Notes under the pieces: generated by a model
The model's database searches: none
What the model was told of the DNA's origin: nothing
The model's input: only the letters and a program-made list of their open reading frames with translations
Assembly: GCA_029263455.1 (NCBI GenBank)
Contig: JAJCXM010000004.1
Location: 1 to 64,000 of the forward strand
Source: Holophagae bacterium
GTDB taxonomy: Bacteria; Acidobacteriota; Holophagae; Acanthopleuribacterales; Acanthopleuribacteraceae
Reading direction: 5' to 3'
DNA: 64,000 nucleotides
In this document: piece by piece, positions 5,125 through 52,758 of the stretch
Layout: every line of letters starts with the position of its first letter
How positions within the stretch are numbered: the stretch's first letter is position 1
Translations under genes and position numbers: made by a program

Positions 5125-7971
5125 CTAGTAAGCCATTTGGCGACGCTTCGGACCTTCGCTTGCGTAATCGTCGTGTTCTGAGTCGATTACGTCGTTTTGG
5201 GCCATGCTCGATGGACCCTCGATGGGGGCTCGTTGGATGCTCGATGAGGGCTCGAACTCTGGATTATCATGCTCGAAGTTGGATTCGTTCTCTTGTTTTT
5301 GGAGGTCGTTGACATCGATGAGGCCCATCACGAAACGATCACCTTCTTTCCCTTCGCCGGCATAGACCAGCTCATACAGGAAGCTTTGGCCGCGTCGGCC
5401 ACGGTGGGCTAGAACGTATTCCAGCGTGACCAGCTTCTCCATGTGGGTACGCACCTGGAAGTCACTCCAACCACAGAACTCGCGGATCTCTCGACGCGTA
5501 AAGCGAACGTCTTCACGATCCATGCTTTCGCGGTTGGCTTGGTCTAGCACCATGTCATCCAAGAGATCGAGGAAGCGCCTGGTCTGTGGGGTGAGTTCGT
5601 CTAAGCAACGACCTAAGGTGGCATTGATCAAGCGATTGGCTAGCCTGATGTCTTTCAGGGTGGCTTCGATATAGGGCAGTTTTTGACCTTGCTGTTCATC
5701 CACATGTACAGGCCTTTGGTACTGATGCAACATGGCTATGGCCCGGATTAAGGCCAAGTATTTCTTTTGGTCACGGCGGGTTCGCAGTTTTGTATCCAGG
5801 AAGGTGAGGTGTTGCGCATACGGGTTTACGACGTGGATCGGCCGTAACAGGCGCTGCATATTCTGGTGACGATGTTGGATGGTTTCACGTTCCCGCCGGC
5901 GTCGCCACCCGTTGAGGGTTTCGGCCTCCCTTTGGAGGAGATGGATGGCTCGGGTTTGCGCTCGGCTCTCGTCCACGGTGAGGATAATGCACCGATTCCG
6001 CAGTTCCTCATCCATATCGATGGCGGTGGTGGTCAGGATTAAAGCCACCGGCCCTTCCACGCGATAACGTTCCACGGATAGCTTGCCGGTCTTAGGGTCT
6101 TTGCCCGTACTGGCGATGTTGAGCTCGCCTTCGCTGACCAGCAGTTTTAGCGGGTAGGTCGCTCCTTCAGCGCCTTCCTCTTCCACAATGGCTAGCACCT
6201 TGTGTTTGAGATGGGTGGCATCCATGTAGAACAGCGATTTACCCGTCATGGCGGTATACTTCTCCACTTCTTCAGGGGGTGTGAACGAAAGGATCACATC
6301 CATTGTCGCTGTCTTGCCTGCCGATGAAGCGCTTTGGATGGCGATGGCAATGGGATCAGGGAGCAAGCGACTAATAGCGGCTAAGTAGCCAAGCAACTTA
6401 TTGGTTTCCTCCCCAACGATGCCACAGCTCTCGAAGTCATCCAGGATCCGATCTAACAGATGAGGGTCCCGTAATGAGGCCAAAGCTTCAGCCGTTTCTT
6501 GATCACTGAGCTGAGGACCGTCCGTTTCTTTGGTGATCTCATGGCTGTCCCGCCAGGCTTCTAATTGACCCATGAGATAGCGTAGATCCTCACGCAGGGT
6601 GGCTTCTTCGGTATAGAGTTCTCGGGCCGCTTCGTGGATGAAGGCAGTTCGCTGTTTGGCCGAATAGAGTTCCAGGATGTCCACGTGGATGTGGTCATCC
6701 CGCGTCACCATTAGGTTGATCTTCATGTGGGTCGGATCACCGGCTATGCCTCGAACACGGTAGTGACGATCGTCCCGCGTGATCCGGACTTCATCCCCTT
6801 CCCCCTTGCTTATAGCTTCTTCATTTAGCGGCTCTTCATGGGCCTTTTCAAGTTCACCACGTCTTATGGGAGCCACGATCTGGGCCGATTGGGGGCCCGC
6901 CATCCAGGTGGCTTGATCCACCAGGATACCTAAGGCTTTAGTCGCTGGGCTCACTTTCAGTGCAAAAACATTGGCGTCCATGCCTTTGGGGAAGCTGATC
7001 CGGTAACTGGCAATGGAAGCAGCGGCTAAACGAGCCGCTAGCTTATGGGCGGCTTCGTTGCCTGACTGATCGGCATCATAAGCGATCAGCACACGTCTGA
7101 CCCCTCTTTGGTTGAACGCGTGTAAATGGCTGTCGGTGAATCCGTTCGTCCCATAACTAGCGGTAACGTTGTGGAACCCATTCACCCAGAAGGTTAATCC
7201 ATCGATCAGCGATTCGCATAAGATCACGTCGGGTTCGTTGAGCCCGTCCAGGTTCCACACGCCACGGTGTGGCCCGGGCAAGTAGGTGTGGTTCGGGGTG
7301 CCTTGCCGCAGGTTAGCTAAGATCTTGCGGCCATAAAGGTCGGTCACGACACCGTTTGGATCGATCACTGGAATGACTAAGGACCCGGCAAAGTGTTCAT
7401 GTCCAGACGCACGAAACACGCCTAAGCTAATCAGTTTGGCCCGCAGATCCATGCCCTCCTGGCATTGACGGCTAGGGAGACGTTTCGAGAGTGAACGGTT
7501 GCTATACCCTAGCTTGAAGCGCTCGATCGCATTCGCGTCGTCAATGCCGCGTTGCTTGAGATACGCCATCGCTCGTTTCGAATCCTTCAGTGACGCGTGG
7601 TAGTCATCCACCACAAGATTCAGCAGCTCCTGGCGATCGGACTCGCCGACTTGGATCTGAGGGCGTTGAACCTCGATCTCTTCTACGCCCGCATAATGGC
7701 AGAGCCATGTATAGGCTTCGCGAAAGGTGCATGATTCGCGTTGCATCACCCAGGCAAAGACATCGCCTCCGCGATCACAAGCCCCAAGACAGTGCCACAG
7801 GTTCTTGGATGGTGTGATCACTAGCGAAGGCTCACGATCATCATGGAAGGGACAGAGCCCCAGGTAATTGGAACCCTGCTTCTCGAGCTTCGTTCCGGAT
7901 GATCGAACTAGGTCGTCTAAGTCCACCTCGCGCTTCATCCGTTCAATCGTGTCCTGGGGAATCCGTGCCAT
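5125..7971 (-). CDS. Element-encoded DNA primase/helicase-like protein (CHC2, TOPRIM, P-loop ATPase)
   Basis: A 948-residue protein. It carries an N-terminal CHC2 zinc finger (Cys40, His43, Cys61, Cys65), then a TOPRIM domain with the acidic signature CESLID and AYDADQSG (about residues 240-320). A P-loop ATPase domain follows, with Walker A SASSAGKTAT (about 548-557) and a Walker B-like AIVEEEG. The C-terminus is charged and winged-helix-like. This combination is typical of mobile-element replication proteins that prime and unwind their own DNA. I chose the ATG at 7971, ten bases after GGGAG, over the TTG at 7989. It is divergent from the XRE gene across a 72-bp promoter region and transcribed towards the integrase. 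Confidence 0.85.
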   Translation of the reverse strand: MARIPQDTIERMKREVDLDDLVRSSGTKLEKQGSNYLGLCPFHDDREPSLVITPSKNLWHCLGACDRGGDVFAWVMQRESCTFREAYTWLCHYAGVEEIEVQRPQIQVGESDRQELLNLVVDDYHASLKDSKRAMAYLKQRGIDDANAIERFKLGYSNRSLSKRLPSRQCQEGMDLRAKLISLGVFRASGHEHFAGSLVIPVIDPNGVVTDLYGRKILANLRQGTPNHTYLPGPHRGVWNLDGLNEPDVILCESLIDGLTFWVNGFHNVTASYGTNGFTDSHLHAFNQRGVRRVLIAYDADQSGNEAAHKLAARLAAASIASYRISFPKGMDANVFALKVSPATKALGILVDQATWMAGPQSAQIVAPIRRGELEKAHEEPLNEEAISKGEGDEVRITRDDRHYRVRGIAGDPTHMKINLMVTRDDHIHVDILELYSAKQRTAFIHEAARELYTEEATLREDLRYLMGQLEAWRDSHEITKETDGPQLSDQETAEALASLRDPHLLDRILDDFESCGIVGEETNKLLGYLAAISRLLPDPIAIAIQSASSAGKTATMDVILSFTPPEEVEKYTAMTGKSLFYMDATHLKHKVLAIVEEEGAEGATYPLKLLVSEGELNIASTGKDPKTGKLSVERYRVEGPVALILTTTAIDMDEELRNRCIILTVDESRAQTRAIHLLQREAETLNGWRRRRERETIQHRHQNMQRLLRPIHVVNPYAQHLTFLDTKLRTRRDQKKYLALIRAIAMLHQYQRPVHVDEQQGQKLPYIEATLKDIRLANRLINATLGRCLDELTPQTRRFLDLLDDMVLDQANRESMDREDVRFTRREIREFCGWSDFQVRTHMEKLVTLEYVLAHRGRRGQSFLYELVYAGEGKEGDRFVMGLIDVNDLQKQENESNFEHDNPEFEPSSSIQRAPIEGPSSMAQNDVIDSEHDDYASEGPKRRQMAY

Positions 7972-37615: not shown

Positions 37616-40594
37616 TCAGTTGAGAGCCAGTTCTCGTTGGGTCTCAAATCGGTTTAGGTTAGTCTTGATACGGTCTGCAAATGGATGGCTTGTGCTTGCC
37701 AGTCCATCCAACGCAGCTAATAACGCTTCGCGAGCCTCTTGCTTGCGGCCCTGATCAAACCAAACCATGGCAAGGTAATTGAGCGCCAGGGCGGTACGCG
37801 CGTGGCCCGGCTGAAAGTACAAATCCGCATGGTTGAGCGCTATACGTGCAAGCGATTCGGCTTCGTCTAACTGACCGCTTAGGCGAAGCACATCGACCAA
37901 ATTAATTTCGGTACAGATCGTATAAAAATGGGTTGGTCCTGTACCCAGCCGGTGAGCCTGCAGACAATCTTTAAACAGTTGTTCCGATTGCGCGAACTCA
38001 CCTTGTTCTTTTAAGCCCATGGCTAAATTGTTCATCGCCACCAAGACACCCGGATCGGATTCATATTCACAGAGTAATTGATCTAGGACCTCGCTTTTGA
38101 TGAGTACAGCTTGATCAATAGACCCTTCATTCTGGAGCACAGTCGCCAGATTCGCCATTGAACGAATGACGCGTCGATCTGTTGGCCCATACAACTCCCT
38201 TTTCACTAGTAAAGTCTTTTCAATTTGACGGCGTGCTTCCCCGGTACGTCCCAAATCGAGCAAAAACGAAGCCACCTGATCCATGGCAAGAATCGTATAT
38301 GGGTGCAGTTTTCCAACCACTTCGGATTGCAAACGTTCGGTGTTTTTGGCCACTTCCAATGCTTCTTCGAAGCGGCCCGCATGTCTCAGAATATTGGCAT
38401 ACAAGCTTTGACAAGCCAGTGAACCTGGATGTCTTTCACCCAAAATTTCGCGCTTAGCCTGCAAACACGAAGTCACCAGTAATAGGGCATCTTGATTGCG
38501 GTCCATCAGATCGAAAAGACGAGCCAGATTCTGTTCTGCAGCCAACGTTTTTGGATGCCTTAAGCCGTACACATTGCGATGTGCTTCGACGGCTTGTGAC
38601 AGATACTTGTCGGCTTCAACAAGTTGGTTCTGGTTCATAAGTTCTGCCCCGAGGTTAACCGAGGCAGAAAGCGTCAAAGGACTATTCGCACCCAGGACAT
38701 CTGACTTCAACTGAAACGCTTCGCGAAGGTGACGCAAGCCTTGTTCTTCGTGTCCGGCTCGTGTCTCGTATCTACCCAAGTTTTCAAGGGCGCCCATGAA
38801 TCCCTGATCTCTTTCGCCAAATTCTGAACGTAGCGCGTTCGCGATAGGATCGAGCATGGCGCGAGCCTCGTCGTAGCGACCCTGCTCCCCAACAAGGACA
38901 GCTAGCAGCTGGCGAGCCATCATGGTGTCATGATGGTCGGCACCATTCGCTTTAACTCGCTTCGATATCAATTCCTGGGCACGAAGCTCGGCCTGCTTTG
39001 TTTTTCCGAGTCGCAGCTCGATAATCGCCAGGACTTGTTCTGAGAATAGTGTGTCTTCATGACTTGAACCCAAGATACGCGCTTGGATAGCAAGTGCTTG
39101 AGTGACCAACTTATTGGCGTCTGAATACAGGCCTAAATTTTCGTAAGATTCACCGACGATAGATAAAATTTTGGCCTTGGTTTGCGAATCAGGTTCGAGT
39201 TCAAGTTCCGAGGAGAAAGCGCTTAAAACCTCCGCGAATCGCACGTCACTTCCTGCCTGATCCGGATCCGATGAGTGCAAGAGCTTAGTCAGTTGAGCCG
39301 TAACAGCTTGGTATCGATCACGTTCCATACGGATCTTAATTGACTGATCCCATGAAACGATCAGAAAGCCAATGACTAATACAGCAACCGCGGTAGCGGT
39401 GGCAACGCCAGCCCAATGACGACGCACAAATTTACCTGTTCGATAGACCCACGAATCGCCGCGAACCGATATCGGGCGACCGTTCATGACACACGAAAGG
39501 TCCTGTCTAAATGCCTCCGCTGTGGCGTAACGGCGTGCCACTTCAGGATGCAATGCTTTAAGCACCAAACAGTCCAAATCGCCTTTCAGTTGCGAACGGA
39601 AACGCTTGGAGCCAGGACCCGAATCAACCGCAGCCTCCAAACTGCTGGGCCGAGCGGCAAACCGGTGCCCCATCACAACTGGCGGCAAACCCATTCGCGT
39701 CACAGGGAAAGGTCGTTGTTGCGTCAGCAGTTCAAATAGCAGGATGCCTAAACCATAAACATCCGATGCAGTCGTCAACTCTAATCCCAACAATTGTTCG
39801 GGGCTGGCGTATCCGGGTGAGAACATCTGCATACCGGTCTGTGTTGATGGGGCGTCGTCTTGCAGAAACTTTGCAATCCCAAAATCCAATAACTTGACCT
39901 GTCCATCATGGTTTACAAGCACATTGGATGGTTTGAGGTCGCGGTGTAAGACCAAATTGCGATGCGCGTATTGAACGGCTTCAAGCACCTGTTCAAATAG
40001 ATTTAGACGGGCTTTCAAGTCCAATTCCTGTTCGTTACAGAATTGGTCAATGGGAACGCCCCGCACCAGCTCCATCACTAAATAGGATGAGCCTGCTTCA
40101 TCAACGCCACTGTCCATAAGACGTGCAATATGTGGGTGCTCTAGACCAGCTTGTAAGCGGCACTCGCGACGAAAACGCGCTTCATCGACTGGGTCAGGGA
40201 CCGCCCAGCGAATAATTTTGATGGCCACCTGTTTGTCAAAGGCACCATCGGCCCGTTCAGCGAGATAAACAGTACCCATGCCACCCCGACCTAAGGTGTG
40301 CAATAACCGATAGGATCCGATAAATCGCTCTTTTTTGTCAGATAGTTCGGTTTCATTTGTACAGGACCGGATCGGTCCAGCTGTGGTCGGGACCGCTTCG
40401 GCTGCCGTGGACCGCAGCTCATCAAAATAACCGTCAGCCTTCTCCTGATCCTCCAACAGTCGCGCAACATCACCGGCAAGTTCCGGCTGAGTCCGCGCCA
40501 GGCGTGCTAAGAACAGCGGACGTTTGTGTTCAGCGAGTTCCAATACATGCTGGTAGGTCGCATCTATCTCGCGAAGTCGCTCTAAATTCATCAT
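37616..40594 (-). CDS. Membrane Ser/Thr protein kinase with periplasmic TPR domain, second copy
   Basis: A 992-residue protein with the same plan as 10718-13486. A helical N-terminal segment (about 1-85) precedes the kinase domain (about 93-370): GRGGMGTVYLA, VAIKIIRW, HRDLKPSN, DFGIAKF and SPGYASPEQL. A transmembrane helix follows (about 395-417, GVATATAVAVLVIGFLIVSW), then about 560 residues of TPR repeats facing the periplasm. ATG 40594 follows AGAGGAAACA. It lies 28 bp downstream of an ECF sigma gene on the same strand, so the two are co-transcribed and the kinase likely gates the sigma factor. Divergent position to the lanthipeptide cluster suggests, but does not prove, control of it. 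Confidence 0.93.
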   Translation of the reverse strand: MMNLERLREIDATYQHVLELAEHKRPLFLARLARTQPELAGDVARLLEDQEKADGYFDELRSTAAEAVPTTAGPIRSCTNETELSDKKERFIGSYRLLHTLGRGGMGTVYLAERADGAFDKQVAIKIIRWAVPDPVDEARFRRECRLQAGLEHPHIARLMDSGVDEAGSSYLVMELVRGVPIDQFCNEQELDLKARLNLFEQVLEAVQYAHRNLVLHRDLKPSNVLVNHDGQVKLLDFGIAKFLQDDAPSTQTGMQMFSPGYASPEQLLGLELTTASDVYGLGILLFELLTQQRPFPVTRMGLPPVVMGHRFAARPSSLEAAVDSGPGSKRFRSQLKGDLDCLVLKALHPEVARRYATAEAFRQDLSCVMNGRPISVRGDSWVYRTGKFVRRHWAGVATATAVAVLVIGFLIVSWDQSIKIRMERDRYQAVTAQLTKLLHSSDPDQAGSDVRFAEVLSAFSSELELEPDSQTKAKILSIVGESYENLGLYSDANKLVTQALAIQARILGSSHEDTLFSEQVLAIIELRLGKTKQAELRAQELISKRVKANGADHHDTMMARQLLAVLVGEQGRYDEARAMLDPIANALRSEFGERDQGFMGALENLGRYETRAGHEEQGLRHLREAFQLKSDVLGANSPLTLSASVNLGAELMNQNQLVEADKYLSQAVEAHRNVYGLRHPKTLAAEQNLARLFDLMDRNQDALLLVTSCLQAKREILGERHPGSLACQSLYANILRHAGRFEEALEVAKNTERLQSEVVGKLHPYTILAMDQVASFLLDLGRTGEARRQIEKTLLVKRELYGPTDRRVIRSMANLATVLQNEGSIDQAVLIKSEVLDQLLCEYESDPGVLVAMNNLAMGLKEQGEFAQSEQLFKDCLQAHRLGTGPTHFYTICTEINLVDVLRLSGQLDEAESLARIALNHADLYFQPGHARTALALNYLAMVWFDQGRKQEAREALLAALDGLASTSHPFADRIKTNLNRFETQRELALN

Positions 40595-40622
40595 TGTTTC
40601 CTCTTAAATGAACCGTCCACCA

Positions 40623-41129
40623 TCATGTCAACATGGCATGTAAATAGGACTTGGCGCGAGTCCAGTCTCTTTCGACCGTTCTCAGAGAAACCCCCATCAA
40701 TTCCGCCGTCTCGTTGTTCGATAAGCCTCCATAAAATCGACATTCCACCAGTTGCACAAGTCGTGGGTCCATCTCTCCCAAAGACTTGAGTGCTTCGTCA
40801 ACTGCCAATAGGTCCGTATTGAAGACGGATCCTGGAATCACGGGCGACTTATCCATCTGACGCTTTTGCGCCACCTTGCGGCGAGCGTAATCGACTAACA
40901 CTTGTCGCATGGCCCTACAAGAAAGCGCCATGAGGTGATTGCGGTCAGATACATTCAAGTCCTGGCCCTTGACGAGCTTGATATATACCTCGTTGACCAA
41001 AGCCGTGGTCGACAATGTGTGACTTCTGCAACCGTACAGTTTCCGGTGTGCCAATCTCTTCAGCTCCTGATAGATCTCGTCCCAGGTCCGTTCTGAGACC
41101 GGGCCTAAGACAGGCTGGATCGCGTTCAT
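40623..41129 (-). CDS. ECF-type sigma-70 factor, kinase-linked
   Basis: A 168-residue sigma factor of the same group as 14858-15427. Region 2 has HTLSTTALVNEVYIKLVKG and MRQVLVDYARRKVAQKR. Region 4 has LSNNETAELMGVSLRTVERDWTRAKSYL. I prefer ATG 41129 over the upstream start at 41183 because GGGAC precedes it and homologous proteins start near this point. It is followed at 28 bp by the kinase-TPR gene and has no anti-sigma gene. The upstream region of about 400 bp is shared with the lanthipeptide precursor gene. Confidence 0.88.
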   Translation of the reverse strand: MNAIQPVLGPVSERTWDEIYQELKRLAHRKLYGCRSHTLSTTALVNEVYIKLVKGQDLNVSDRNHLMALSCRAMRQVLVDYARRKVAQKRQMDKSPVIPGSVFNTDLLAVDEALKSLGEMDPRLVQLVECRFYGGLSNNETAELMGVSLRTVERDWTRAKSYLHAMLT

Positions 41130-41536
41130 GATTTGTCCCGCATTGTAATTGTGTTGGTGGAGGCAACCAATATAACCCAACACCCATGCGAGTGCAAATT
41201 CAGTCGAAATATCGATTGAATCGACCTATTTCGAAAAAAATGGACGTCAAACTAAAAATGTTTGGCGGCTATCCGCCTTGGTTTGCGTTGACCTCTCTAC
41301 ACAGACCCCAGTTACGAGTCAACCTCGCCATCTCAGTCATTGAGTGTGCCGTTCAGGTTGGTGTGTGTTCGGTACGGTCAACCCGTGTTGGTTCGTGGAG
41401 AAGCGACTTAATACCGAGCTTACGCCTCACCTTAGCGACACTTCAGGATCTGCCTGATCGCTGTTGTCACGTTGCAGGGTCTAAGGGGGAGTTTGGATCC
41501 TATCCACTCCGACAACCAATCCAATAAGGAGAAAAA
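41130..41536. other. Shared promoter region, sigma factor / lanthipeptide precursor
   Basis: About 407 bp between divergent genes. It contains a small hairpin GGCGG-CTAT-CCGCC (41264-41277). A plus-strand ORF here has low-complexity translation and no ribosome-binding site, so I do not call it. The AAGGAG at about 41527 belongs to the precursor gene. Confidence 0.45.
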
Positions 41537-41803
41537 ATGAAAAAGGACATTCTTAGAGCATGGAAAGACGAAGCCTACCGCGAAACAGCTGGTGATGTTC
41601 CTGAAAACCCAGCAGGTCTTCAGGAACTTACTCGTGAAGAAGCGGAGCAGGTGAATGCGGCCGGTGGCTTCCTAAGTCGATCGGGCTGTTTGACAAAACC
41701 TTGGATATGTACCGGTAACTGTACGCCACTGTGTGCGTCATCACAGTGCTGGTCAGCCAACCACACAGTCTGTGACTGTGTCTATTCTGCCGTGGCCTGT
41801 TAG
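41537..41803 (+). CDS. lanA: Class II lanthipeptide precursor, mersacidin/lichenicidin-type leader
   Basis: An 88-residue precursor. The leader (residues 1-44) begins MKKDILRAWKDEAYRE and continues PENPAGLQEL, matching the mersacidin/lichenicidin-type leader pattern. It ends in Gly43-Gly44, the double-glycine site cut by C39 peptidases. The 44-residue core has 8 Cys and 10 Ser/Thr (motifs SGCLT, CTGNC, CTPLC, ASSQC, TVCDC, and a terminal Cys), enough for up to eight lanthionine-type rings. A strong ribosome-binding site (AAGGAG) precedes ATG 41537. A hairpin follows, then LanM and the export genes. A role as antimicrobial or signal is not decided by sequence. Confidence 0.93.
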   Translation: MKKDILRAWKDEAYRETAGDVPENPAGLQELTREEAEQVNAAGGFLSRSGCLTKPWICTGNCTPLCASSQCWSANHTVCDCVYSAVAC

Positions 41804-42013: not shown

Positions 42014-45000
42014 ATGACATCACAGACGACTCAATTGCATCCATTCCAACGTGCCTTATTCCCACATGAGTGCGCTCACCCAAGCCAGTGCGCGCAAGAA
42101 GGCGATTCCGCTAAGCACGTCAATCAGTTTCGCGAGCATTGGTGCAAGAGAGCGCACCTGCCCTTGCAGACACTTGAGCAAAAATTCCAATTTGAATGTT
42201 CTGCTCAGCAATTTGATTCGTTGGCTGCTCATTGGCATGCGACACGTTGGCAATACGACAATTTCGAACCGGAAATTAGCTGGCGCGAACATAGCGACGA
42301 ATCGGCCTGGTTCAATCGCCTATGCCAGATATTCGATGACTGGCAGCCAGCTCCAGATATCGCCATTTTGGACAAAGACGCAAGTTTTGCGCCCGCCTTT
42401 GTACCGTTCATGAATTGGGCCTGGCGCCAACTAGACAACCAATGGCGTGCTTCAGATTCATGCATCGATCAAAATAAACTAAAACCACAGTTATTGGATG
42501 ATCTGTGCAACAAACTCGGGATGTTATGTCACCGTGTGCTCGTGTTGGAGTTGAATGTCGCCCGCATGGAAGAGCGTCTCAACGGCGACACGCCCAAATT
42601 GAGGTTTCTCGATTTCAGAAAAAGAATATTGGGTAAAGCCAATGGATGGCAACGGTTATTCACAGAATACCAAGTCTTAGCGCGACTGGTGTCAGGGACG
42701 CTGGATCATTGGGTGAAAACGACCACCGACCTGATTACACGAACAACAGCCGACCTCTCTGAATTGGATAACCATTTCCTTGGAGGTTCCGAATACTCGT
42801 GGGTGGCCGCAAAAGGAGGCGTTTCTGATCCACATTGCGGTGGCCAAGGCGTTTGGATACTTGGCTTTGAGAACGGAGAAGGTGAGCGTCAGCAGCTCGT
42901 TTACAAACCAAAATCCATGGCAATCGATGATCGCTTCCATGACCTGCTACGGTGGTTAAACAACAAAGCAGCCACTCATCAAATGCCAGGGCTAATGGAT
43001 ATGCAAGGGCAATCCCTTTTTGAGTTCCCGATCACGTTGAATCGAGGTGACTACGGGTGGAGCTCTTTCGTGAATCGGCAAGATGTCGTCTCAACGCAAG
43101 CCGCAGAGAGATTCTACTTTAGGCAAGGAGCCTTTCTAGCCATCTTGCATCTCTTAGGTGCAACCGATTTCCACCACGAAAACCTCATCGCGGATGGCGA
43201 ATTCCCCGTGCTTGTTGACTTGGAGACGCTACTCCATCCAGCTCCAGATTTTGTGGAAGTGAAGTCGGCTCGCGATAAGGCCAACGCATGGCTCTCAAGA
43301 TCGGTGATGCACACCGGCATGCTGCCTAGAAGATTGTGGGGCGATAACCAACGATCCGGCGTTAACTTGGCTGGTCTAGGCTCGGACAAATCACAGGTTC
43401 TGCCAAATCCCGTCCCCGATTGGGAAGGTACAGGCACCGACCAAATGCGGCAAGTGCGCACAGCCAAGGAATTGAAGAAGTCAGACAATCTGCCTGGCAA
43501 AGACGGCAAGCCTATTTCGGTAACAAACCATATTTCCGATCTGCTTACCGGATTCCAAACCATGTATCGATTCGTGCAGACCCACGCCCAAGAACTGACG
43601 CAAATGCACGGTCCCCTTATGGCATTCAGCGGTGTAAAAACGCGTGTTGTATTACGCGGCACCAAACTATACTCAAGCCTGCTCTACGACGGTCTCCACC
43701 CAGACCACATGCGTCATGCCTTTGATCGTGACAATCTAATGGAACATCTATGGAGTCAAAGCCAAGGGTCCAACATCCACATGCAATTGGTGGCTCATGA
43801 GAAGCGTGATTTGAGCTTCGGCGATGTGCCCTACTTTTCCGTGCTGACAAACAGTACCCAGCTAAGGAACAGTCGCGGAGAGCCTGTCTGCGAAATTGAT
43901 CGCCACTCAGCTTTTGACAATATGCTTTTTCGCCTGCAATCCATGAGTGAAAAGGATTTAGAGGACCAGTGCTTTGTCATTCAAGGTTCGGTAGGAACGA
44001 TCATGGGCAATCATATATCCGCTAACAGCCAGGAAAGCAAAGCGGGCGAAATCGAAGCGCCCGCAAAGCTCGCACATCAATTAGGTCAACATTTATTGGA
44101 CACTGCTTTTCATGGCGACAATGACGTGAGCTGGCTCAGCATGGACATCATGCCTGATGGTGCCTGGTCCTTTAATCCAACAGCAACAGATCTATACGGC
44201 GGTAACGCTGGCATAGGTTGGTTCCTCAGCCTGCTGGCCCGCGACTCTGGAAATAGACAAGTCGCACAGATGGCGAAACAGATTTACAACGAATTGGAGG
44301 GTGCGCTGCAGATCCCTGAATTCGCGATCCACGGCGGTTACATAGGAAGCTGCTCCATCTTTTACGCGATGGTGCAAATGAATGCGGCACTGCCATCGTT
44401 GGGTCCGCTACCCGATTTCGGCGAAAACCTAAATCAGCTAATCCTCAACGTTAGTGAAGACACGCACTACGATGTCATTGCAGGCGCTGCAGGCACACTC
44501 CTGCACGCGCTGGCGATCCACAAACTCACTGGCTCAATTGAAGCCTTGAGCTTAATTGAAGCCTGCGCCAAACACCTGGTTGATTCCGCATGCACCACAG
44601 AGCGAGGTTGCTACTGGCCATTTTCACAGAGCCCAGCTGGGCTGCTCGGCTTCTCACATGGAAATGCGGGCATCGCATGCGCACTCGCGCGGGCATCGGA
44701 ACGACTAAAAGTAACAGGTAACACGGGTCCGATCATTGACAGCATTGAAAGCACAATTACCGCAGCCTTAGCTTATGAGCGCACACATTTCGACTCGAAC
44801 GCCAATAATTGGCCCGACCTGCGAGAATTTGACGACCAACCAAACGACCTTCATTTTGAGAGTCAGTGGTGTCATGGCGCTCCAGGCGTCGGATTGGGTC
44901 GATCTATGTTGCCCGACAAATATCTGGACAGTGTAGCCATCAACGAAATCGAGATATCGCTGCACACGATGTTGAGTCAGCCCATGATCGGCAATCATTG

Positions 45001-45310
45001 TTTGTGCCACGGCCTATTGGGCAACTTACTTGTGGCTCGCCAACTTGAAAAACGACTTACACAGCTCAGCCCGAAACATGCACAATCCAAAAACAACGCC
45101 ACACAGGTCTTGGCTGCATGGAAACGCACAGCACAATCACAAATCCAAAACCAAGGTCCCTTATGTGGTATTGAACTTCCGATAAAGATTCCTGGATTGA
45201 TGTCAGGACTCTCAGGCATTGGTCTGGCCTTGCTCTACCTCGACGACAAGCAGAACATCTGCAATCCCATGAGCTTGGAATACCCGAAAACGTTAGCGAT
45301 AGGCCAATGA
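42014..45310 (+). CDS. lanM: Class II lanthionine synthetase LanM
   Basis: A 1098-residue bifunctional enzyme. The N-terminal dehydratase (DUF4135-type, about residues 140-640) shows LVYKPKSMAID, GATDFHHENLIADGEFPVLVDLETLLHP and a kinase-like active site. It phosphorylates and eliminates Ser/Thr of the precursor core. The C-terminal LanC-like cyclase (about 725-1095) has GGNAGIGWFL, SHGNAGIACAL, and zinc ligands Cys953 (WCHGAPG), Cys998 and His999 (CLCHGLLGN), which add Cys thiols to form rings. The length is normal for LanM. It lies 210 bp after the precursor and overlaps the HlyD gene by ATGA. Confidence 0.96.
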   Translation: MTSQTTQLHPFQRALFPHECAHPSQCAQEGDSAKHVNQFREHWCKRAHLPLQTLEQKFQFECSAQQFDSLAAHWHATRWQYDNFEPEISWREHSDESAWFNRLCQIFDDWQPAPDIAILDKDASFAPAFVPFMNWAWRQLDNQWRASDSCIDQNKLKPQLLDDLCNKLGMLCHRVLVLELNVARMEERLNGDTPKLRFLDFRKRILGKANGWQRLFTEYQVLARLVSGTLDHWVKTTTDLITRTTADLSELDNHFLGGSEYSWVAAKGGVSDPHCGGQGVWILGFENGEGERQQLVYKPKSMAIDDRFHDLLRWLNNKAATHQMPGLMDMQGQSLFEFPITLNRGDYGWSSFVNRQDVVSTQAAERFYFRQGAFLAILHLLGATDFHHENLIADGEFPVLVDLETLLHPAPDFVEVKSARDKANAWLSRSVMHTGMLPRRLWGDNQRSGVNLAGLGSDKSQVLPNPVPDWEGTGTDQMRQVRTAKELKKSDNLPGKDGKPISVTNHISDLLTGFQTMYRFVQTHAQELTQMHGPLMAFSGVKTRVVLRGTKLYSSLLYDGLHPDHMRHAFDRDNLMEHLWSQSQGSNIHMQLVAHEKRDLSFGDVPYFSVLTNSTQLRNSRGEPVCEIDRHSAFDNMLFRLQSMSEKDLEDQCFVIQGSVGTIMGNHISANSQESKAGEIEAPAKLAHQLGQHLLDTAFHGDNDVSWLSMDIMPDGAWSFNPTATDLYGGNAGIGWFLSLLARDSGNRQVAQMAKQIYNELEGALQIPEFAIHGGYIGSCSIFYAMVQMNAALPSLGPLPDFGENLNQLILNVSEDTHYDVIAGAAGTLLHALAIHKLTGSIEALSLIEACAKHLVDSACTTERGCYWPFSQSPAGLLGFSHGNAGIACALARASERLKVTGNTGPIIDSIESTITAALAYERTHFDSNANNWPDLREFDDQPNDLHFESQWCHGAPGVGLGRSMLPDKYLDSVAINEIEISLHTMLSQPMIGNHCLCHGLLGNLLVARQLEKRLTQLSPKHAQSKNNATQVLAAWKRTAQSQIQNQGPLCGIELPIKIPGLMSGLSGIGLALLYLDDKQNICNPMSLEYPKTLAIGQ

Positions 45311-46227
45311 GTCGACTAAGTGTTTTTGCTACAGCTTCGGCAGCAGGCTTGCTACTCGTTCTCCTGATCATCGTTTTTCTTGTGCAGAACAAGGCCACCA
45401 CGGAGGATACGGCGACAAAAGTACCTACTAATATTCGCGATCAAGTCCAACTAAGTCAACATGATACACACGATGATGGGTTCTTAGGCGTGGTGTTAGC
45501 CGATGAACTTGAGCATGTAGTTTGCCCTTTTGATGCGTTCATCGAAAGGCTCTTGATTCGAGAAGGCAATGGGGTTTCGCTTGGCCAGCCACTCATTCAA
45601 CTCAAAGCAACCCACCTAGATGAAGACTTAGACATAGCGCGGGCAGCTTTGGTTGCGGCACGCGTTAACGCGGAGGAAGCAAGGCTTAATCGAACCCAAG
45701 CTCAAGAGAAGCTCGAACGAATGGACAAAGCACCCAGCGTCTATTCTCAGGTAGACCATCGCGAAGCCGAACTTGAGCTAGCTCGTGTCAACCAACGCCT
45801 TCTTTCTGAGCAATCGGCGTTGAAGCAGGCGCACATCAGGTTAACGGCTCTTGAGGAACGCATGGGGAAGTCAGTCATAGAAGCGCCCTTTTCTGGAACC
45901 ATTCGCTCTTTGCGAATCATGCAAGGACAACAAGTTTCAGAAGGTCAGGATCTATTAACCCTTATAGCACCATCGCAAGGAGTCATACGCTTTGCGGTTC
46001 CGCCGGATAAAGTTATTGGCGTGCAAAATGGAACGCCCGTTCGCATGCAGATTGAAGGCACAGACCTAGACTATACGGGCACGGTAACTTCGATCAACCA
46101 GCAACGAGACGAATCAAGTCAGTTAATCTTCTGTTTAGCGCAACTGCTCGTTGAACCCAATTCCACACCACCGGCTGGCGGTAGTGGCAACGTCTTTATC
46201 GCGGAACAACTTCGTGTCGAACCTTGA
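45307..46227 (+). CDS. HlyD-family periplasmic adaptor
   Basis: A 306-residue membrane fusion protein. It has one N-terminal transmembrane helix (about 7-27, ASAAGLLLVLLIIVFLV), a first biotinyl-lipoyl half (EHVVCPFDAFIERLLIREGNGVSLGQPLIQL), an alpha-hairpin coiled coil (about 105-180), and a second lipoyl half (IEAPFSGTIRSLRIMQGQQVSEGQDLL). A beta-barrel region (VPPDKVIGVQNGTPVRMQIEG) completes it. Such adaptors bridge an inner-membrane ABC exporter to an outer-membrane channel. Its presence fits lanthipeptide export across two membranes. It is translationally coupled to LanM upstream and overlaps the next gene. Confidence 0.88.
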   Translation: MSRLSVFATASAAGLLLVLLIIVFLVQNKATTEDTATKVPTNIRDQVQLSQHDTHDDGFLGVVLADELEHVVCPFDAFIERLLIREGNGVSLGQPLIQLKATHLDEDLDIARAALVAARVNAEEARLNRTQAQEKLERMDKAPSVYSQVDHREAELELARVNQRLLSEQSALKQAHIRLTALEERMGKSVIEAPFSGTIRSLRIMQGQQVSEGQDLLTLIAPSQGVIRFAVPPDKVIGVQNGTPVRMQIEGTDLDYTGTVTSINQQRDESSQLIFCLAQLLVEPNSTPPAGGSGNVFIAEQLRVEP

Positions 46228-48451
46228 AGGCCTGGAGTTGACGCGCGTGGATGGCGCGGAAGTGCATGAGACTCATTGCGTCCAAACCTCCATGCCCATC
46301 GGTCATTATCCCACTCTAGGCCAAGTATTGCTTGCCGGAACTTGGTGTAACGTCCAGATTAGGCATCTTAGCGAACGTGGCATCCTCGCTCTTTATGATC
46401 ATCCCCATCAAATGGCGTTTCGACCAGGCGACCATATCTTGTTGTCGGGCAAGTTCAGTGCGCACAAGTCGTTGGAACAGGTCTGGTGTCAGATACGAAC
46501 CGTTTCGCCCATGCATCGCAAACTGGATGGGTCGGATGTTGGAATTTTGGGACTGACGTTTTTAGAATCAGACCCAATCACCCATCGATTGCGCAGTAAT
46601 CACGGTTTGCTGCCTCACCATACCTTGGTCGTCAGGCTTGGTTCCGCTGCTGCAATCGAAATAAGCAATCATTCTCGAGTGATCGAGGTGGATAGTTGCG
46701 AAAATGCACTTTCAGCCTTAGAAGAGTATGAAATGGCAACGGTTTTGATCCTTGCTGACGGTGACCGAACACCCACTCAACATGAGTGGACGGCACTGCG
46801 GTGGACGTTTCCGGCCCAGTTCTCCAATTTGATTGTGATTTCGTCAAAAATTCCAGAATTGAGTTCAAGTAGTTTGTTTTTCCGAGCTTGCCAGCGACTC
46901 AACGCCAGTGATCTTCACCAACTCATAAATGCGGCCCATACGGCGTATGAAAATTCGATGACGGCTAGGCTCGATGGTGGTTTGCGTTTCATGCTGCAGT
47001 CAGAGAACCTAACTAAAGTGCAAGCGGTCACTAGCAAGTTAGCCATTCAAAGAGACATCAACGAAGCGATCCGATTCGTGACTCATTCGATAAAAGAGTT
47101 GACCCATTCGTCAAACGCATCCTGTTTGTTAATCAGCCGTTTCGACAGCACCGCAACTTGTGTTGCCAGCCATATCAACGTTACAAACCAGGATGTTGAG
47201 ACCGGCATCACAGGCTATGTGCTGGCCACAAGGAAAGCCATACACCTTGATCGCATCGCCACATCAAGATGTTATGAAACCCAAACGGATCTGCACCTCG
47301 GCAACCCAAACGATCGCGCGATTGTGCATCCTATCCTAGCGGATTCCGACTCGATGGGTCTTATCGCCGTTTCACGGTCAAGGAACGATCCGCCCTTTGG
47401 TGAACAAGAGGTACAAATCGTCGCTTTGGCGGCTGATCTTTTTGCTTCCTCATTGCTGGCCCTGAACCTCAGGGCATCGTTTGCCAAAGCATGTCAGCAG
47501 GATCGATCAAAACAGTTAGGTATTTACCGGGAAGAAGCTTTGAATCATCACGCAAAGTCGATTTTGTCAGAAGGCAGCGTCCTGCCCTTCTCTCCTTTCT
47601 GGGAAAAGTGGGCCTTTGGTAGCGTGGCTTTGCTGATATTGGCAGGGGTCGTTTTTGCCATCTTTGGCCGCATTGGCGAATACGCGGCGGGACCCGCGAT
47701 TGTGCAAGCCGATCAGGCGACCAGCGTGAGCACCGTCCGAGTTGGTACGATTGCCTCGGTCGAAGTCAAACCAGGTCAACAAGTTACACAGGGTCAGGTG
47801 CTGTTTAGAATTGCGTCCCAAGAACAGAATGATCAATTGCAGAACATTGAAGAGGGGTGGCGGGCCCATTTGGTTTCGCGGATGCTTGATCCAACGGACA
47901 CGGGCGCCCAACAGGCGCTAAGACAGATCCGCATTGAAAGGGATGCTCTTTTACAGGCACTACGCATGAACGACGTGCGTGCGCCACACGATGGCATTGT
48001 CGGCGATTTGCGCATCCATTCCGGGGAACTCCTTCAGGTGGGTCAAACAGCTCTCTTGCTGACACGATCTCAACCTACCTATTCGTTGGTCGCATTCTTG
48101 CCCGGGCGATTTGCTCCTCAAATAACGGTTGACCAACCCTTCAGATTCAAACTGCGTGGTTACCAAGACCAGTACATGGAACTCGTCGTTGAACGGCTGA
48201 GTCAAGGCGTCGTCAGTCCTACCGACGCCCGTCGCGTGATCGGTTTCGAGGCTCAAGACATGTTTCAAATTGAAGGTCCAGTCGTACTGGTCTATGCACG
48301 CGTAGAAACAGCCACGATACAGGTAGAGGGACAAAGCCTGAGCCTTCTAAACGGCATGATCGGAGACGCAGAATTCAAATTAAGATCCCAATCGATCCTA
48401 AGTAGCATGCTGCCAGCGCTAAAGAAATCAGTGGGAGTAGAACATGAATGA
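46214..48451 (+). CDS. Cytosolic sensor fused to HlyD adaptor (PilZ-like, receiver-like, GAF, TM, lipoyl)
   Basis: About 745 residues from GTG 46214; GTG 46247, better spaced after GGAG, and TTG 46151 are alternatives. Domains in order: a PilZ-like beta barrel (about 30-115, CNVQIRHLSERGILALYD), with the DxSxxG motif reading HLSERG; a receiver-like alpha/beta domain (about 135-245) without a convincing phosphoacceptor Asp; a GAF domain (about 275-415, ASCLLISRFDSTATCVA ... GITGYVLATRKAIHL); one transmembrane helix (about 463-485); and an HlyD-type periplasmic part (about 508-730, VASVEVKPGQQVTQGQVLFRI and RAPHDGIVGDLRIHSGELLQVG). It appears to be an exporter adaptor controlled from the cytosol. 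It overlaps both neighbours. Confidence 0.75.
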   Translation: MSNLEGLELTRVDGAEVHETHCVQTSMPIGHYPTLGQVLLAGTWCNVQIRHLSERGILALYDHPHQMAFRPGDHILLSGKFSAHKSLEQVWCQIRTVSPMHRKLDGSDVGILGLTFLESDPITHRLRSNHGLLPHHTLVVRLGSAAAIEISNHSRVIEVDSCENALSALEEYEMATVLILADGDRTPTQHEWTALRWTFPAQFSNLIVISSKIPELSSSSLFFRACQRLNASDLHQLINAAHTAYENSMTARLDGGLRFMLQSENLTKVQAVTSKLAIQRDINEAIRFVTHSIKELTHSSNASCLLISRFDSTATCVASHINVTNQDVETGITGYVLATRKAIHLDRIATSRCYETQTDLHLGNPNDRAIVHPILADSDSMGLIAVSRSRNDPPFGEQEVQIVALAADLFASSLLALNLRASFAKACQQDRSKQLGIYREEALNHHAKSILSEGSVLPFSPFWEKWAFGSVALLILAGVVFAIFGRIGEYAAGPAIVQADQATSVSTVRVGTIASVEVKPGQQVTQGQVLFRIASQEQNDQLQNIEEGWRAHLVSRMLDPTDTGAQQALRQIRIERDALLQALRMNDVRAPHDGIVGDLRIHSGELLQVGQTALLLTRSQPTYSLVAFLPGRFAPQITVDQPFRFKLRGYQDQYMELVVERLSQGVVSPTDARRVIGFEAQDMFQIEGPVVLVYARVETATIQVEGQSLSLLNGMIGDAEFKLRSQSILSSMLPALKKSVGVEHE

Positions 48452-50654
48452 TGACCCAAATAATGGGAATTGGTATGGGTTCCGCTCTCTGAATCGAATC
48501 AAATGGAAGCGCAAAACGCAGGAGATTCCAGTCATTCAGCAAATGGAGGCTGTCGAATGCGGTGCGGCCTGTTTGACAATGGTACTTGCCTATTTCGGCA
48601 AGTCTTTGCGATTGAGCGAAGTGCGTGAGGTGGTGGGCATTGGCAGGGACGGGACATCTGTTATGTCGCTTTTACAAGCGGCCCACCATTTCGGACTTCG
48701 TGGACGAGCCGTAAAAGCTGACATAAAAGACATTGGACACTTACCAAAAGCCTCAATATTACACTGGGAATTTAATCACTTTGTCTTGCTTGAATCCGTG
48801 GCAGACGAAGACGTCACCATCATTGATCCGGCCTTTGGACGCCGAAAAATATCGATGACTCATTTCAAGCAAGGATACACAGGGGTTGCTATCAGCTTTG
48901 AACCCACTGAGTCCTTCAACCACAAGAGTGGCTCCGAATTCAGTAAAAACAGGATTGGCATATATCTCGCCAAAGTCTTACAGGCAAAAGGCTGGATCTT
49001 AAGAATCGTGGCATTAGCATTCATGATTCAGCTATTAGCCCTTTCATTGCCTATCCTTACTGGGGCGTTGGTCGATCGTGTCGTTCCTCACCATGATCGT
49101 CAGTTATTGACGTTAATGGGTATCGGCTTCGCTGCCATCGTGGCGTTCAGATTCCTTTCGGGGCTAATTCGTGCGCATCTACTGCTCTTCCTGCAAAGCA
49201 AATTGGACATTCAATTCAGCTTCGATTTCATTGATCACCTGGTACGTTTGCCATTTTCGTTTTTTCAGCGGCGCGGCGCGGGTGACTTACTTATGCGGCT
49301 TAACTCGAACGCAACTATCCGTGATTTGCTGACGTCCTCAACGCTCTCGACCTTGATGGATGGTGTCTTGGTCGTCTTCTATTTGATTGCACTATTTATG
49401 ATCAGCAGCGCCATTGGACTTTTAGTGCTTGTATTAGGCGTCATTCGCTTGACCATTTTTGGGCTGGCCCGTCGACGAATTCGTGATTTGGTGGCGGAGA
49501 GTCTCAAGGCTGAAGCGGATTCTCAAAGTTATCAGGTACAAATGTTAGGCGGAATGCAGACCTTAAAGACGTGTGGCGCAGAATTCCATGCGGTGGATCG
49601 CTGGTCAAATCTATTTGTTGATGTGGTCAACATTAGTCTTCGAAAAGGCCGTTTGATGGCCTGGACCGACTCTGCAATGGACGCCACGCGCATGGCGTCG
49701 CCGCTAGTGCTGCTTCTTTTCGGAGGTAGCATGGTCCTCAACGGCGAGCTCAGCTTAGGCACGATGCTTGCCCTAAGCGCCCTGGCTGAAGGCTTTCTTG
49801 GTCCGCTTTCTTCTTTAGTAGACATGGCTTTGAGGTTGCAAGAACTTGGTGCCTTAGTAGATCGAATCGATGATGTTGTTCAGACACCTCACGAACAACA
49901 CGCTGAACAAGTTGCCGCACCGGGGCAAATGAAGGGTCATGTACGCATTGAAAATCTTCACTTCAGGTACGACCCGCAGGCAAAAAAAGTGCTCAAGTCG
50001 ATCGATCTCGAGGTACCGATAGGGCAGACATTGGCGGTTGTAGGTGCATCTGGATCTGGGAAATCAACCTTGGGCAGCTTAATGGCAGGGCTATTTAAAC
50101 CCGTGGAAGGTCGCATACTGTTCGATGATCGCGACATCCACGAACTGGATCTGAGAATGCTTCGCAAACAAATGGGCATCGTATTACAACACCCATTTCT
50201 GTTTCCGGGCACGATTCGCGAAAACCTTTTGTTGGCCAAGCCAGATGCTCCATTTGAGCGTGTTGTGCGTGCCTGTAAAATTGCGGAGATCCACACCACT
50301 ATTCTGGAAATGCCGCTTGGTTATGATTCCATTCTTGTCGATGAAGGTTCAACGCTGTCGGGCGGCCAACGCCAACGTTTGGCCTTGGCTCGCGCATTAG
50401 TGCAGGAACCTGCCATTCTCATCCTGGATGAGGCATCAAGTGCATTAGACACGGTCACTGAACGTCGCATCCAAGAAAACCTCAAGCGCATAGATTGCAC
50501 CAAAATCATCATCGCGCAGCGCCTTAGTACCATTGAGCACGCCGATCAAATCGCTGTCTTAAAGGACGGTCACATCGTTGAAAGAGGCAGCCACGCCGAG
50601 CTACTTTCGCGCATGGGCGCCTATCATGAGTTAGTGGCGGCACAAGTTAGTTAA
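48444..50654 (+). CDS. lanT: C39-peptidase ABC exporter for the lanthipeptide (LanT)
   Basis: A 736-residue exporter. The N-terminal C39 peptidase has Cys39 (VECGAAC), His112 (FNHFVLL) and Asp128 (IIDPAFG), which cut after the double glycine of the leader. Six transmembrane helices follow (about 180-460), then the ABC ATPase: Walker A GASGSGKST, signature LSGGQRQRLALARAL, Walker B ILILDEASS and the switch in IIAQRLSTIEH. It removes the leader and exports the modified peptide, presumably with the two upstream HlyD-type proteins. ATG 48444 overlaps the previous stop by 8 bp. No TolC-like outer-membrane gene or immunity transporter is in the cluster. Confidence 0.95.
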   Translation: MNDDPNNGNWYGFRSLNRIKWKRKTQEIPVIQQMEAVECGAACLTMVLAYFGKSLRLSEVREVVGIGRDGTSVMSLLQAAHHFGLRGRAVKADIKDIGHLPKASILHWEFNHFVLLESVADEDVTIIDPAFGRRKISMTHFKQGYTGVAISFEPTESFNHKSGSEFSKNRIGIYLAKVLQAKGWILRIVALAFMIQLLALSLPILTGALVDRVVPHHDRQLLTLMGIGFAAIVAFRFLSGLIRAHLLLFLQSKLDIQFSFDFIDHLVRLPFSFFQRRGAGDLLMRLNSNATIRDLLTSSTLSTLMDGVLVVFYLIALFMISSAIGLLVLVLGVIRLTIFGLARRRIRDLVAESLKAEADSQSYQVQMLGGMQTLKTCGAEFHAVDRWSNLFVDVVNISLRKGRLMAWTDSAMDATRMASPLVLLLFGGSMVLNGELSLGTMLALSALAEGFLGPLSSLVDMALRLQELGALVDRIDDVVQTPHEQHAEQVAAPGQMKGHVRIENLHFRYDPQAKKVLKSIDLEVPIGQTLAVVGASGSGKSTLGSLMAGLFKPVEGRILFDDRDIHELDLRMLRKQMGIVLQHPFLFPGTIRENLLLAKPDAPFERVVRACKIAEIHTTILEMPLGYDSILVDEGSTLSGGQRQRLALARALVQEPAILILDEASSALDTVTERRIQENLKRIDCTKIIIAQRLSTIEHADQIAVLKDGHIVERGSHAELLSRMGAYHELVAAQVS

Positions 50655-51015
50655 GTGGTCAGGCGCGAATTTGGATAGCAAATTTTTGCAGTACACAGCA
50701 AGCCTCATAACCACCTGACCAGTATTTTCTTGAATTAGCTAAACGTTCCTAACAGTTCGGGCGTTCCTCGGTCTACGTGCCGCTTTGTCTATTGGTAATA
50801 ACGCTAAAATGTAGCGGGAACCACCACGCTGATTTCGTACGAGGGACAATAATATTCTTTCTGACGCAACACATGCTCCGTAAACATCTAATAATGAACA
50901 TGTTATACGCGAACCGCGATCGCGACCAATGATGGCATGGAGTCTGCTGAAGTACGGCAGCGTCGACGTCTTTGAATAATACAATCGATAAATGAGTCAC
51001 ACACGGGAGTTGGAT
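50655..51015. other. Intergenic region after exporter
   Basis: About 360 bp. GGTCAGG (50657) and CCTGACC (50714) could pair across about 50 bp, but this is not a convincing terminator. Minus-strand ORFs have no ribosome-binding site. GGAG at about 51005 serves the next gene. Confidence 0.4.
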
Positions 51016-52758
51016 ATGAACCAGGAACACGCGAATAGAGCCATCAGACGAATAAGGATTTGGCCCGCATTGGTTTTGCTCACCTTATTACTTGTCGCCA
51101 GGTACATGGTGCCATTCTTCGCGCCGGAGGCCTTTGCCTATGGCGTCATGGGCAGCATGGCCGCAAGCCTTTTGATCATTGTATGGTGGCTCTTTTTCAG
51201 TCGCGCGCCCTGGTCAGAACGGCTCGGAGCCATCGCGCTGATGGCTGTGGCGGTGGTAATAACTTCAAAGCTTGTTCACGTCTCCATTGCAACGGGCGCA
51301 ATGGGAATGTTGCTAATCATTCAGATGATTCCACCTTTATGTGCCAGTTTTGTGATCTGGGCTTGGGCAAGTGGCAAGCTCAACCATTCCATGCGCTGGC
51401 TCTCGATGGGTGCGACTATCCTCATCGCTTGTGGCGTTTGGACATTGGTTCGAACTGCTGGATTCACTGGCTCCGGTGATTCTGATTTCGCTTTTCGCTG
51501 GTCACAGACCGCCGAGGATCGCCTGTTAGCCGAAACGGATAGCCAACCAGCACATAACGCAACCGCAACCTTGTCTCCAGACACAGAAATCGAGTGGTCT
51601 GGATTTCGAGGACGTGAACGCGACAGTATCGTACTGGGCTCTTTGATAAAAAGTGATTGGACAAAATCACCGCCCACTGAAATATGGCGCCAACCCGTGG
51701 GGCCTGGATGGTCATCATTCGCGGTACGGGGCGACTTCTTCTTTACCCAAGAACAGCGTGGCGATGATGAAGTGGTCTCTTGTTATTCGGTGACGAGTGG
51801 CGATCCGGTGTGGCGGCACAGCGACGAGACCAGGTTCTGGGAGTCAAACGCAGGAGCCGGACCGCGAGGCACTCCAACAATACATGGCGACCTAGTAATC
51901 AGCTTCGGAGCGACAGGGATCCTAAACGTATTAGCTGCTAGTGACGGCACACTGGTGTGGTCTCGTGACGCAGTTGCTGATACAGGCGCGAAGCTCCCGA
52001 CGTGGGGCTTTTCCAGTTCACCTTTGGTGGTTGATGATTTAGTGATCCTAGCCGCTTCTGGCGCATTGATTGCCTACGACTTGGCCTCTGGTGAAATCCG
52101 TTGGTCGGGCCCCAAAGGGGGCACAAGTTATAGTTCTCCCCAGTTGTTTACCATTGCTGACGTGTCGCAAGTCTTGCAACTTAATGGCGATGGCCTGTGC
52201 TCAGTTTCGCCAGACGACGGCTCAACCCTCTGGCAGCACTCATGGGAAGGCTATCCGATCGTGCAGCCAGCTATAACCGACGAAGGAGATATTCTCATTA
52301 GTGTTGATGCCGAAAGTGGTACGCGCCGTTTAGCTATAACCCAACAGGAAAGCCAGTGGCAGGTCCAGGAGCAGTGGACATCCAAGCAACTGAAGTCGTA
52401 CTTTAACGACTTTGTGGTTCACAAAGGCCACGCCTATGGTTTTGATGGCCGAATCATGGCCTGCATCGACCTGGCTGACGGAAAGCGTCGATGGAAAGGT
52501 GGCCGTTACGGAAACGGTCAGTTGATCCTGTTAGCAGATCAAGATCTGATGCTGGTACTTTCCGAGTCAGGTGACTTAGCTCTTGTCTCTGCCACGTCTC
52601 AGAGTTTCGATGAGCTGGCTAAAGTGGAAGCCATCAATGGTAAAACTTGGAATCACCCAGTGTTGGCCGACGACATATTGCTGGTCCGAAATGCACAGGA
52701 AATGGCTGCTTTCAAACTGGCCACATCGGGCGGATCGGGGCTAGCTCAAACCAACTAG
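51016..52758 (+). CDS. Membrane-anchored PQQ-like beta-propeller protein
   Basis: A 580-residue protein. Four to five N-terminal transmembrane helices (about 10-150) are followed by a periplasmic PQQ/quinoprotein-type propeller (about 185-570) with repeats such as VVSCYSVTSGDPVWRHSDE, LNVLAASDGTLVWSRD, LIAYDLASGEIRWSGPKGG and ACIDLADGKRRWKGG. The first blade has the FRGRERDS motif seen in acidobacterial outer-membrane-assembly-like PQQ proteins. Calcium and PQQ ligands of true dehydrogenases are not evident, so it is probably a scaffold or binding protein. The ATG at 51016 has GGGAG nearby. Its TAG stop shares the palindrome CTAG with the stop of the convergent next gene. Confidence 0.8.
   Translation: MNQEHANRAIRRIRIWPALVLLTLLLVARYMVPFFAPEAFAYGVMGSMAASLLIIVWWLFFSRAPWSERLGAIALMAVAVVITSKLVHVSIATGAMGMLLIIQMIPPLCASFVIWAWASGKLNHSMRWLSMGATILIACGVWTLVRTAGFTGSGDSDFAFRWSQTAEDRLLAETDSQPAHNATATLSPDTEIEWSGFRGRERDSIVLGSLIKSDWTKSPPTEIWRQPVGPGWSSFAVRGDFFFTQEQRGDDEVVSCYSVTSGDPVWRHSDETRFWESNAGAGPRGTPTIHGDLVISFGATGILNVLAASDGTLVWSRDAVADTGAKLPTWGFSSSPLVVDDLVILAASGALIAYDLASGEIRWSGPKGGTSYSSPQLFTIADVSQVLQLNGDGLCSVSPDDGSTLWQHSWEGYPIVQPAITDEGDILISVDAESGTRRLAITQQESQWQVQEQWTSKQLKSYFNDFVVHKGHAYGFDGRIMACIDLADGKRRWKGGRYGNGQLILLADQDLMLVLSESGDLALVSATSQSFDELAKVEAINGKTWNHPVLADDILLVRNAQEMAAFKLATSGGSGLAQTN

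Follow-up and report, generated by a model that had tools for sequence, protein, structure and literature searches.

Why should the adaptor of a peptide exporter carry some 460 residues ahead of its sole clear hydrophobic segment, and could a signal inside the cell act through them on export? The question is raised by HlyD2 (46214..48451, + strand; 745 aa, GTG start), encoded in a 64,000-nucleotide stretch of Holophagae bacterium DNA (hereafter the window, meaning the whole stretch analysed), in which PilZ-like, receiver-like and GAF parts precede a membrane helix and an HlyD adaptor half. We suggest, with a probability of about one half, that HlyD2 is a signal-responsive periplasmic adaptor of a C39-peptidase ABC (C39-ABC) peptide exporter that tunes peptide export.

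Operon context and the adaptor half

Genes for making and exporting a lanthipeptide surround HlyD2 on the + strand, beginning with LanA (41537..41803), a precursor of the mersacidin/lichenicidin family with a double-glycine leader (NCBIfam TIGR03898, E 5.7e-11), and LanM (42014..45310), a class II lanthipeptide synthetase (NCBIfam TIGR03897, 798 bits; Pfam DUF4135 and LANC_like). HlyD1 (45307..46227), HlyD2 and the C39-ABC exporter (48444..50654; Pfam Peptidase_C39 1.3e-34, ABC_membrane and ABC_tran) follow in that order, with HlyD2 sharing 14 nt with HlyD1 at its upstream end and 8 nt with the C39-ABC gene at its downstream end. By this gene content (LanA with a GG leader, LanM and C39-ABC), the locus is a class II lanthipeptide operon; the initial annotation had correctly placed the adaptor in a lanthipeptide operon. 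Divergent from it on the - strand lie genes for an ECF sigma factor (40623..41183; Pfam PF07638 1.8e-34) and a Ser/Thr kinase with TPR repeats (37616..40594; Pfam Pkinase 6.7e-45).

HlyD1 is an ordinary adaptor of 306 aa (Pfam HlyD_3 7.3e-16) with an N-terminal membrane helix, its hydropathy peaking at residue 8, and without a sensory module. The window operon thus holds two adaptors, HlyD1 (45307-46227) lying ahead of the sensor-bearing HlyD2; at three related loci described below (L085, L086 and L088) an HlyD1-like gene is found directly after the ABC gene instead. The occurrence of HlyD1-like genes beside the sensor adaptor suggests a two-adaptor exporter. The operon is followed by a gene for a PQQ/BamB-propeller membrane protein (50992-52758); the sister locus shows no counterpart immediately behind its ABC gene.

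The C-terminal part of HlyD2 has the build of a periplasmic adaptor. Its single membrane helix (47603..47671, +; about residues 464-486; hydropathy 2.45), part of a hydrophobic segment that extends over residues 464-492 in the hydropathy scan, is followed by a periplasmic half with a barrel-sandwich and a short helical hairpin (47678..48433, +; Pfam HlyD_3 and HlyD_D23), in which HlyD_3 matches residues 588-675 (E 2.7e-9) and Biotin_lipoyl is also matched (3.4e-5). The hairpin, at about residues 536-584, appears as helices in the full-length AlphaFold model and is the sole domain claim drawn from that model, which is poor (pLDDT 35). With a barrel-sandwich and HlyD_3 after one membrane helix and an ABC gene adjacent, HlyD2 can be assigned by its domains to the HlyD/MFP periplasmic adaptors. 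The NHLM-type HlyD model TIGR03794 scores it at 33.6 bits, below the cut-off of 156.2; the C39-ABC protein likewise scores 621 bits with the NHLM_micro_ABC1 model (TIGR03796), below the cut-off of 853. Homology to HlyD would place the N-terminus of HlyD2 inside the cell. Ahead of the membrane helix, the family alignment reveals a conserved [F/Y]REEALxHH segment (47525..47551, +), which is also present in apparently sensor-less homologues (the L077, L078 and L090 frames).

Three parts ahead of the membrane helix

The initial annotation described an HlyD adaptor fused to about 460 cytosolic-side residues before a single helix, and this description holds, as GAF and HlyD_3 both fall within the intact 745-aa frame. 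The GAF domain (47051..47452, +; residues 280-413) passes the Pfam gathering cut-offs for PF01590 (5.5e-7; 30.6 bits, cut-off 22.4) and PF13185 (3.5e-7; 30.9 bits, cut-off 28.6), and the closest solved structure to it is the GAF of 4mcw. In the HlyD2 of the sister genome, GAF similarity is weak in Pfam (E 0.14).

The first of the three parts is a PilZ-like barrel (46307..46573, +; about residues 32-120). Pfam PilZ (PF07238) has no match in the window HlyD2, and the fold emerges from profile and structure comparison. The window and sister N-termini, combined into one profile and aligned by HHalign to 30 PilZ domains of related genomes, gave a match with a probability of 79% and an E value of 1.6e-5. 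None of 200 column shuffles reached its score (31.0 observed, against a shuffle maximum of 15.0), and E was at least 0.1 when this region was compared with receivers instead or when PilZ was compared with other regions. An AlphaFold model of residues 25-262, built from two input sequences, forms a six-strand barrel at a pLDDT of about 63-74, and its best 16 Foldseek matches (E <= 0.001) are all PilZ structures or PilZ-containing complexes, led by the PilZ domain of E. coli YcgR (5.2e-6) and including that of Alg44 (1.1e-4), whose structures 4rt0 and 4rt1 are among the best. A distant homologue, L059, has a Pfam PilZ match at the same position (24.1 bits, cut-off 22.5). These comparisons support a PilZ fold for the N-terminus of HlyD2, with moderate model confidence.

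Canonical PilZ domains bind cyclic-di-GMP (c-di-GMP) through the motifs RxxxR and [D/N]xSxxG (PMC11800159). In HlyD2 the altered second motif, HLSERG, had been recognised from the outset and aligns in register with [D/N]xSxxG in HHalign; RxxxR is absent as well. The sister reads YMDDHG in the same place, so that neither member of the pair has either motif, while L059 retains NxSxxG. The nucleotide itself is probably present in the cell, because the window genome has 15 PilZ and 23 GGDEF matches. Gating by a nucleotide second messenger through the PilZ-like barrel was one suggestion of the initial annotation; for c-di-GMP and this protein it was set aside, as both binding motifs are lost and PilZ itself is missing in 9 of the 12 family members. 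From its motifs, the window PilZ is unlikely to bind c-di-GMP, and the barrel is most likely a protein-interaction module rather than a receptor for this nucleotide.

Between the barrel and the GAF domain lies a receiver-like, or pseudo-receiver, region (46619..46948, +; about residues 136-245), delimited by position and family alignment. No receiver Pfam match was found in this region of HlyD2. Against a receiver profile, HHalign gives E 4.9e-5 for the family core, a score reached by none of 150 shuffles, compared with E 0.011 and 2 of 150 shuffles for the window pair alone. Strands and helices alternate through the region in a low-confidence AlphaFold model, and on inspection of the family alignment we saw no conserved Asp that could accept a phosphate where strand 3 ends; the initial annotation had likewise noted the lack of an obvious phosphoacceptor. 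Of the three folds originally read from the sequence, GAF (by Pfam) and PilZ (by HHalign and Foldseek) are thus upheld, while the middle part of HlyD2 appears receiver-like in a way that is convincing only at the family level.

A PilZ barrel and a pseudo-receiver without ligand or phosphorylation residues are what would be expected of interaction modules, and they raise the main rival to a signal-responsive adaptor, namely that the cytosolic domains are a docking scaffold, which would bring the synthetase, the precursor or the C39 domain to the place of export, much as the HlyD tail in the cytosol aids recognition of the substrate, and would sense no small signal. A 2021 review in Chem. Rev. 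(PMC8277102) states that type I secretion adaptors cannot do without their cytoplasmic parts in recognising substrates and assembling the complex, and it is for this reason that a docking role stays the main rival. It has against it that GAF domains are most often sensory, and we consider it rather unlikely.

A recurrent family beside C39-ABC genes

The fusion recurs in other Acidobacteriota. A sister genome (G001, locus L027), a MAG of Acidobacteria bacterium isolate HKST-UBA04, carries the whole lan operon in the same gene order, with identities to the window of 46% for HlyD2, 72% for the ABC protein and 77% for LanA, which lies in the same place; its HlyD2 has the same architecture. Searches across the phylum, made genome by genome, yielded ten further GAF-HlyD homologues, in G108 (L059), G280 (L058), G523 (L082), G522 (L083), G524 (L070), G525 (L084), G474 (L085), G472 (L086), G521 (L087) and G469 (L088). 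An assembly or sequencing error joining two genes, which the initial annotation had named as one of the outcomes that would refute it, is ruled out by the 46%-identical fusion in the same operon of the sister and by those in 10 other genomes; nothing was found in its favour, and its probability is negligible.

In all 12 members the GAF-HlyD gene stands directly before a C39-ABC gene of the same direction. PilZ occurs only in the window pair and L059 and, since the other nine members are without it, GAF and the pseudo-receiver can be taken as the family core. Lan enzymes are close by in 5 of the 12: LanM in the window and L027, and LanB with LanC in L059, L086 and L087. A partial LanB lies about 5 kb from the gene in L082, on the opposite strand, and no lan enzymes were found around L084, L085 and L088 within the stretch examined; L083 and L070 are short contigs.

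This distribution bears on the docking scaffold from both sides. The module recurs beside lan enzymes, as docking would have it, yet it accompanies unrelated synthetases (LanM, LanB/LanC, and loci with none found nearby), which leaves the C39-ABC protein as the only conserved candidate for a docking partner. The same set of sequences speaks to the idea that the fused module is an evolutionary leftover, its function lost and its retention due to chance. Degenerate PilZ motifs and a barely recognisable receiver-like region in the window would fit such decay, whereas the 12 homologues have intact frames without stops and cores conserved at identities down to 22-27%, and we give this explanation only a very slim chance.

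Several loci have features of their own. Near the GAF-HlyD and C39-ABC genes of L058, small frames at 6820-7050 and 7134-7496 have class I-like leaders (KLKLNRETLRNLSGDEL...GG) and are possibly lanthipeptide precursors without a synthetase on a short contig. LanB is apparently split in L086 (10568-15960) into a Lant_dehydr_N protein, LanC and a separate Lant_dehydr_C protein. The sigma factor-kinase pair of the window (37616-41183, -) also adjoins the sister operon L027, and in L087, a class I locus, a sigma factor and a shorter kinase are encoded directly upstream of the sensor-adaptor.

The placement of this pair, divergent in the window and sister and directly upstream of the sensor-adaptor in L087, would suit a signal running in reverse, with the adaptor informing the cytosol about the state of export or about conditions in the periplasm, and the sigma factor and kinase acting on this input as controllers of the operon. 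We regard such reverse signalling as improbable, given that most other members have no such pair nearby, that GAF and PilZ are typically inputs, and that no output enzyme is present.

L089, and apparently also L077, L078 and L090, have the same adaptor core without the sensory module but with a short tail retained before the helix. L089, L090 and L077 adjoin the same type of C39-ABC gene, L089 with LanB/LanC in addition, so the sensory module is not essential to export. Strong matches occurred in 6 of 396 genomes in an even sample of the phylum (window and sister included) and, with some partial or sensor-less matches counted, in 14 of 149 genomes of the class to which G280 belongs, while in the class of G108 the only full-length match was in G108 itself; the architecture is by these counts uncommon but recurrent. 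A single-sequence pattern scan of genome contigs gave no match, an alignment-based scan of genome contigs returned the sister MAG only, and a plasmid tblastn found no match. The adaptor-core tree, which has no row for the window, is poorly resolved and does not decide for a single gain of the module.

Proposed gating at the adaptor and known systems

Domain order and its conservation, a single membrane helix, obligate C39-ABC pairing and lanthipeptide context are established at the level of sequence; gating at the adaptor is plausible. In the signal-responsive adaptor that we propose, the cytosolic GAF domain would be the core input, probably binding a small cytosolic ligand; it is kept in every sensory member and is a likelier input than PilZ. 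Stacked on the pseudo-receiver, and in some lineages joined by a PilZ-like barrel, GAF would change its conformation or dimer state. By way of a helix and the conserved REEALxHH segment, the change would reach the membrane helix of the adaptor, which would then promote or block either the assembly of a complex with the C39-ABC transporter encoded alongside or the opening of that complex, such that mature lanthipeptide is exported only when the signal is right. The role of GAF as input, ligand binding, transmission through REEALxHH and control of the C39-ABC complex are the steps that we infer.

In lanthipeptide producers, control of production is generally taken to be transcriptional. Somewhat short of even odds, we tentatively extend the proposal to an Acidobacteriota family of ligand-gated adaptors in which GAF and the pseudo-receiver, with a non-canonical PilZ in some members, control lanthipeptide C39-ABC export post-translationally, at the adaptor. 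If true, the class I and class II systems of a single phylum would share adaptors with built-in sensors, and control would act on export, a layer not yet described for lanthipeptides. PilZ and receiver folds would appear to be reused in HlyD2 without their usual ligands, and residues 1-430 offer a defined soluble fragment for the study of ligands and gating.

How far does HlyD2 depart from known systems? Like the type I secretion adaptors HlyD and CvaA, it has a membrane helix followed by a barrel-sandwich adaptor and is paired with an ABC exporter; we know of no 460-residue three-domain cytosolic module in adaptors of that kind. Export of NHLP/NHLM bacteriocins (TIGR03794/03796/03797; PMC2887384) shares with the window an HlyD adaptor and a C39-ABC protein for ribosomal peptides. 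The window differs in scoring below the curated cut-offs and in its mersacidin-type leader, and the NHLP/NHLM adaptor, in the passages of that paper considered here, is not described as having a sensory module.

GAF, HlyD and biotin_lipoyl domains have been reported together in proteins of SecA_DEAD/Peptidase_M50 loci in Planctomycetes, Verrucomicrobia, Proteobacteria and others, where the passages on these loci suggest a regulatory and sensory role (PMC4452313, 2015). Compared by described domains, these proteins and HlyD2 both have GAF fused to an HlyD adaptor. Unlike at the HlyD2 locus, the authors could identify no homologue of an ABC transporter there, and the same passages make no mention of lanthipeptide enzymes, PilZ or receiver-like parts (PMC4452313). 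Alg44 of Pseudomonas aeruginosa combines PilZ with a membrane fusion domain, an adaptor-type domain, in one protein as HlyD2 does, and mutating residues of its PilZ c-di-GMP motifs abolishes both binding and alginate production (PMC12564702). Alg44 is thus an earlier example of a machine with an adaptor that is under the control of a PilZ domain. Its motifs are intact, it binds cyclic-di-GMP and it acts in alginate synthesis (PMC12564702), whereas HlyD2 has lost these motifs, adds GAF and receiver-like parts, and has a C39-ABC peptide exporter as its partner.

The initial annotation knew of no described lanthipeptide exporter of this form; for lanthipeptides this stands in the papers searched, none of which has a GAF domain, HlyD and lanthipeptide together. 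Because GAF-HlyD and PilZ-adaptor fusions have already been described, HlyD2 is best seen as a variation on them in a new context. What is new is that these domains are combined in one protein and that its gene is invariably paired with a C39 exporter of lanthipeptide type.
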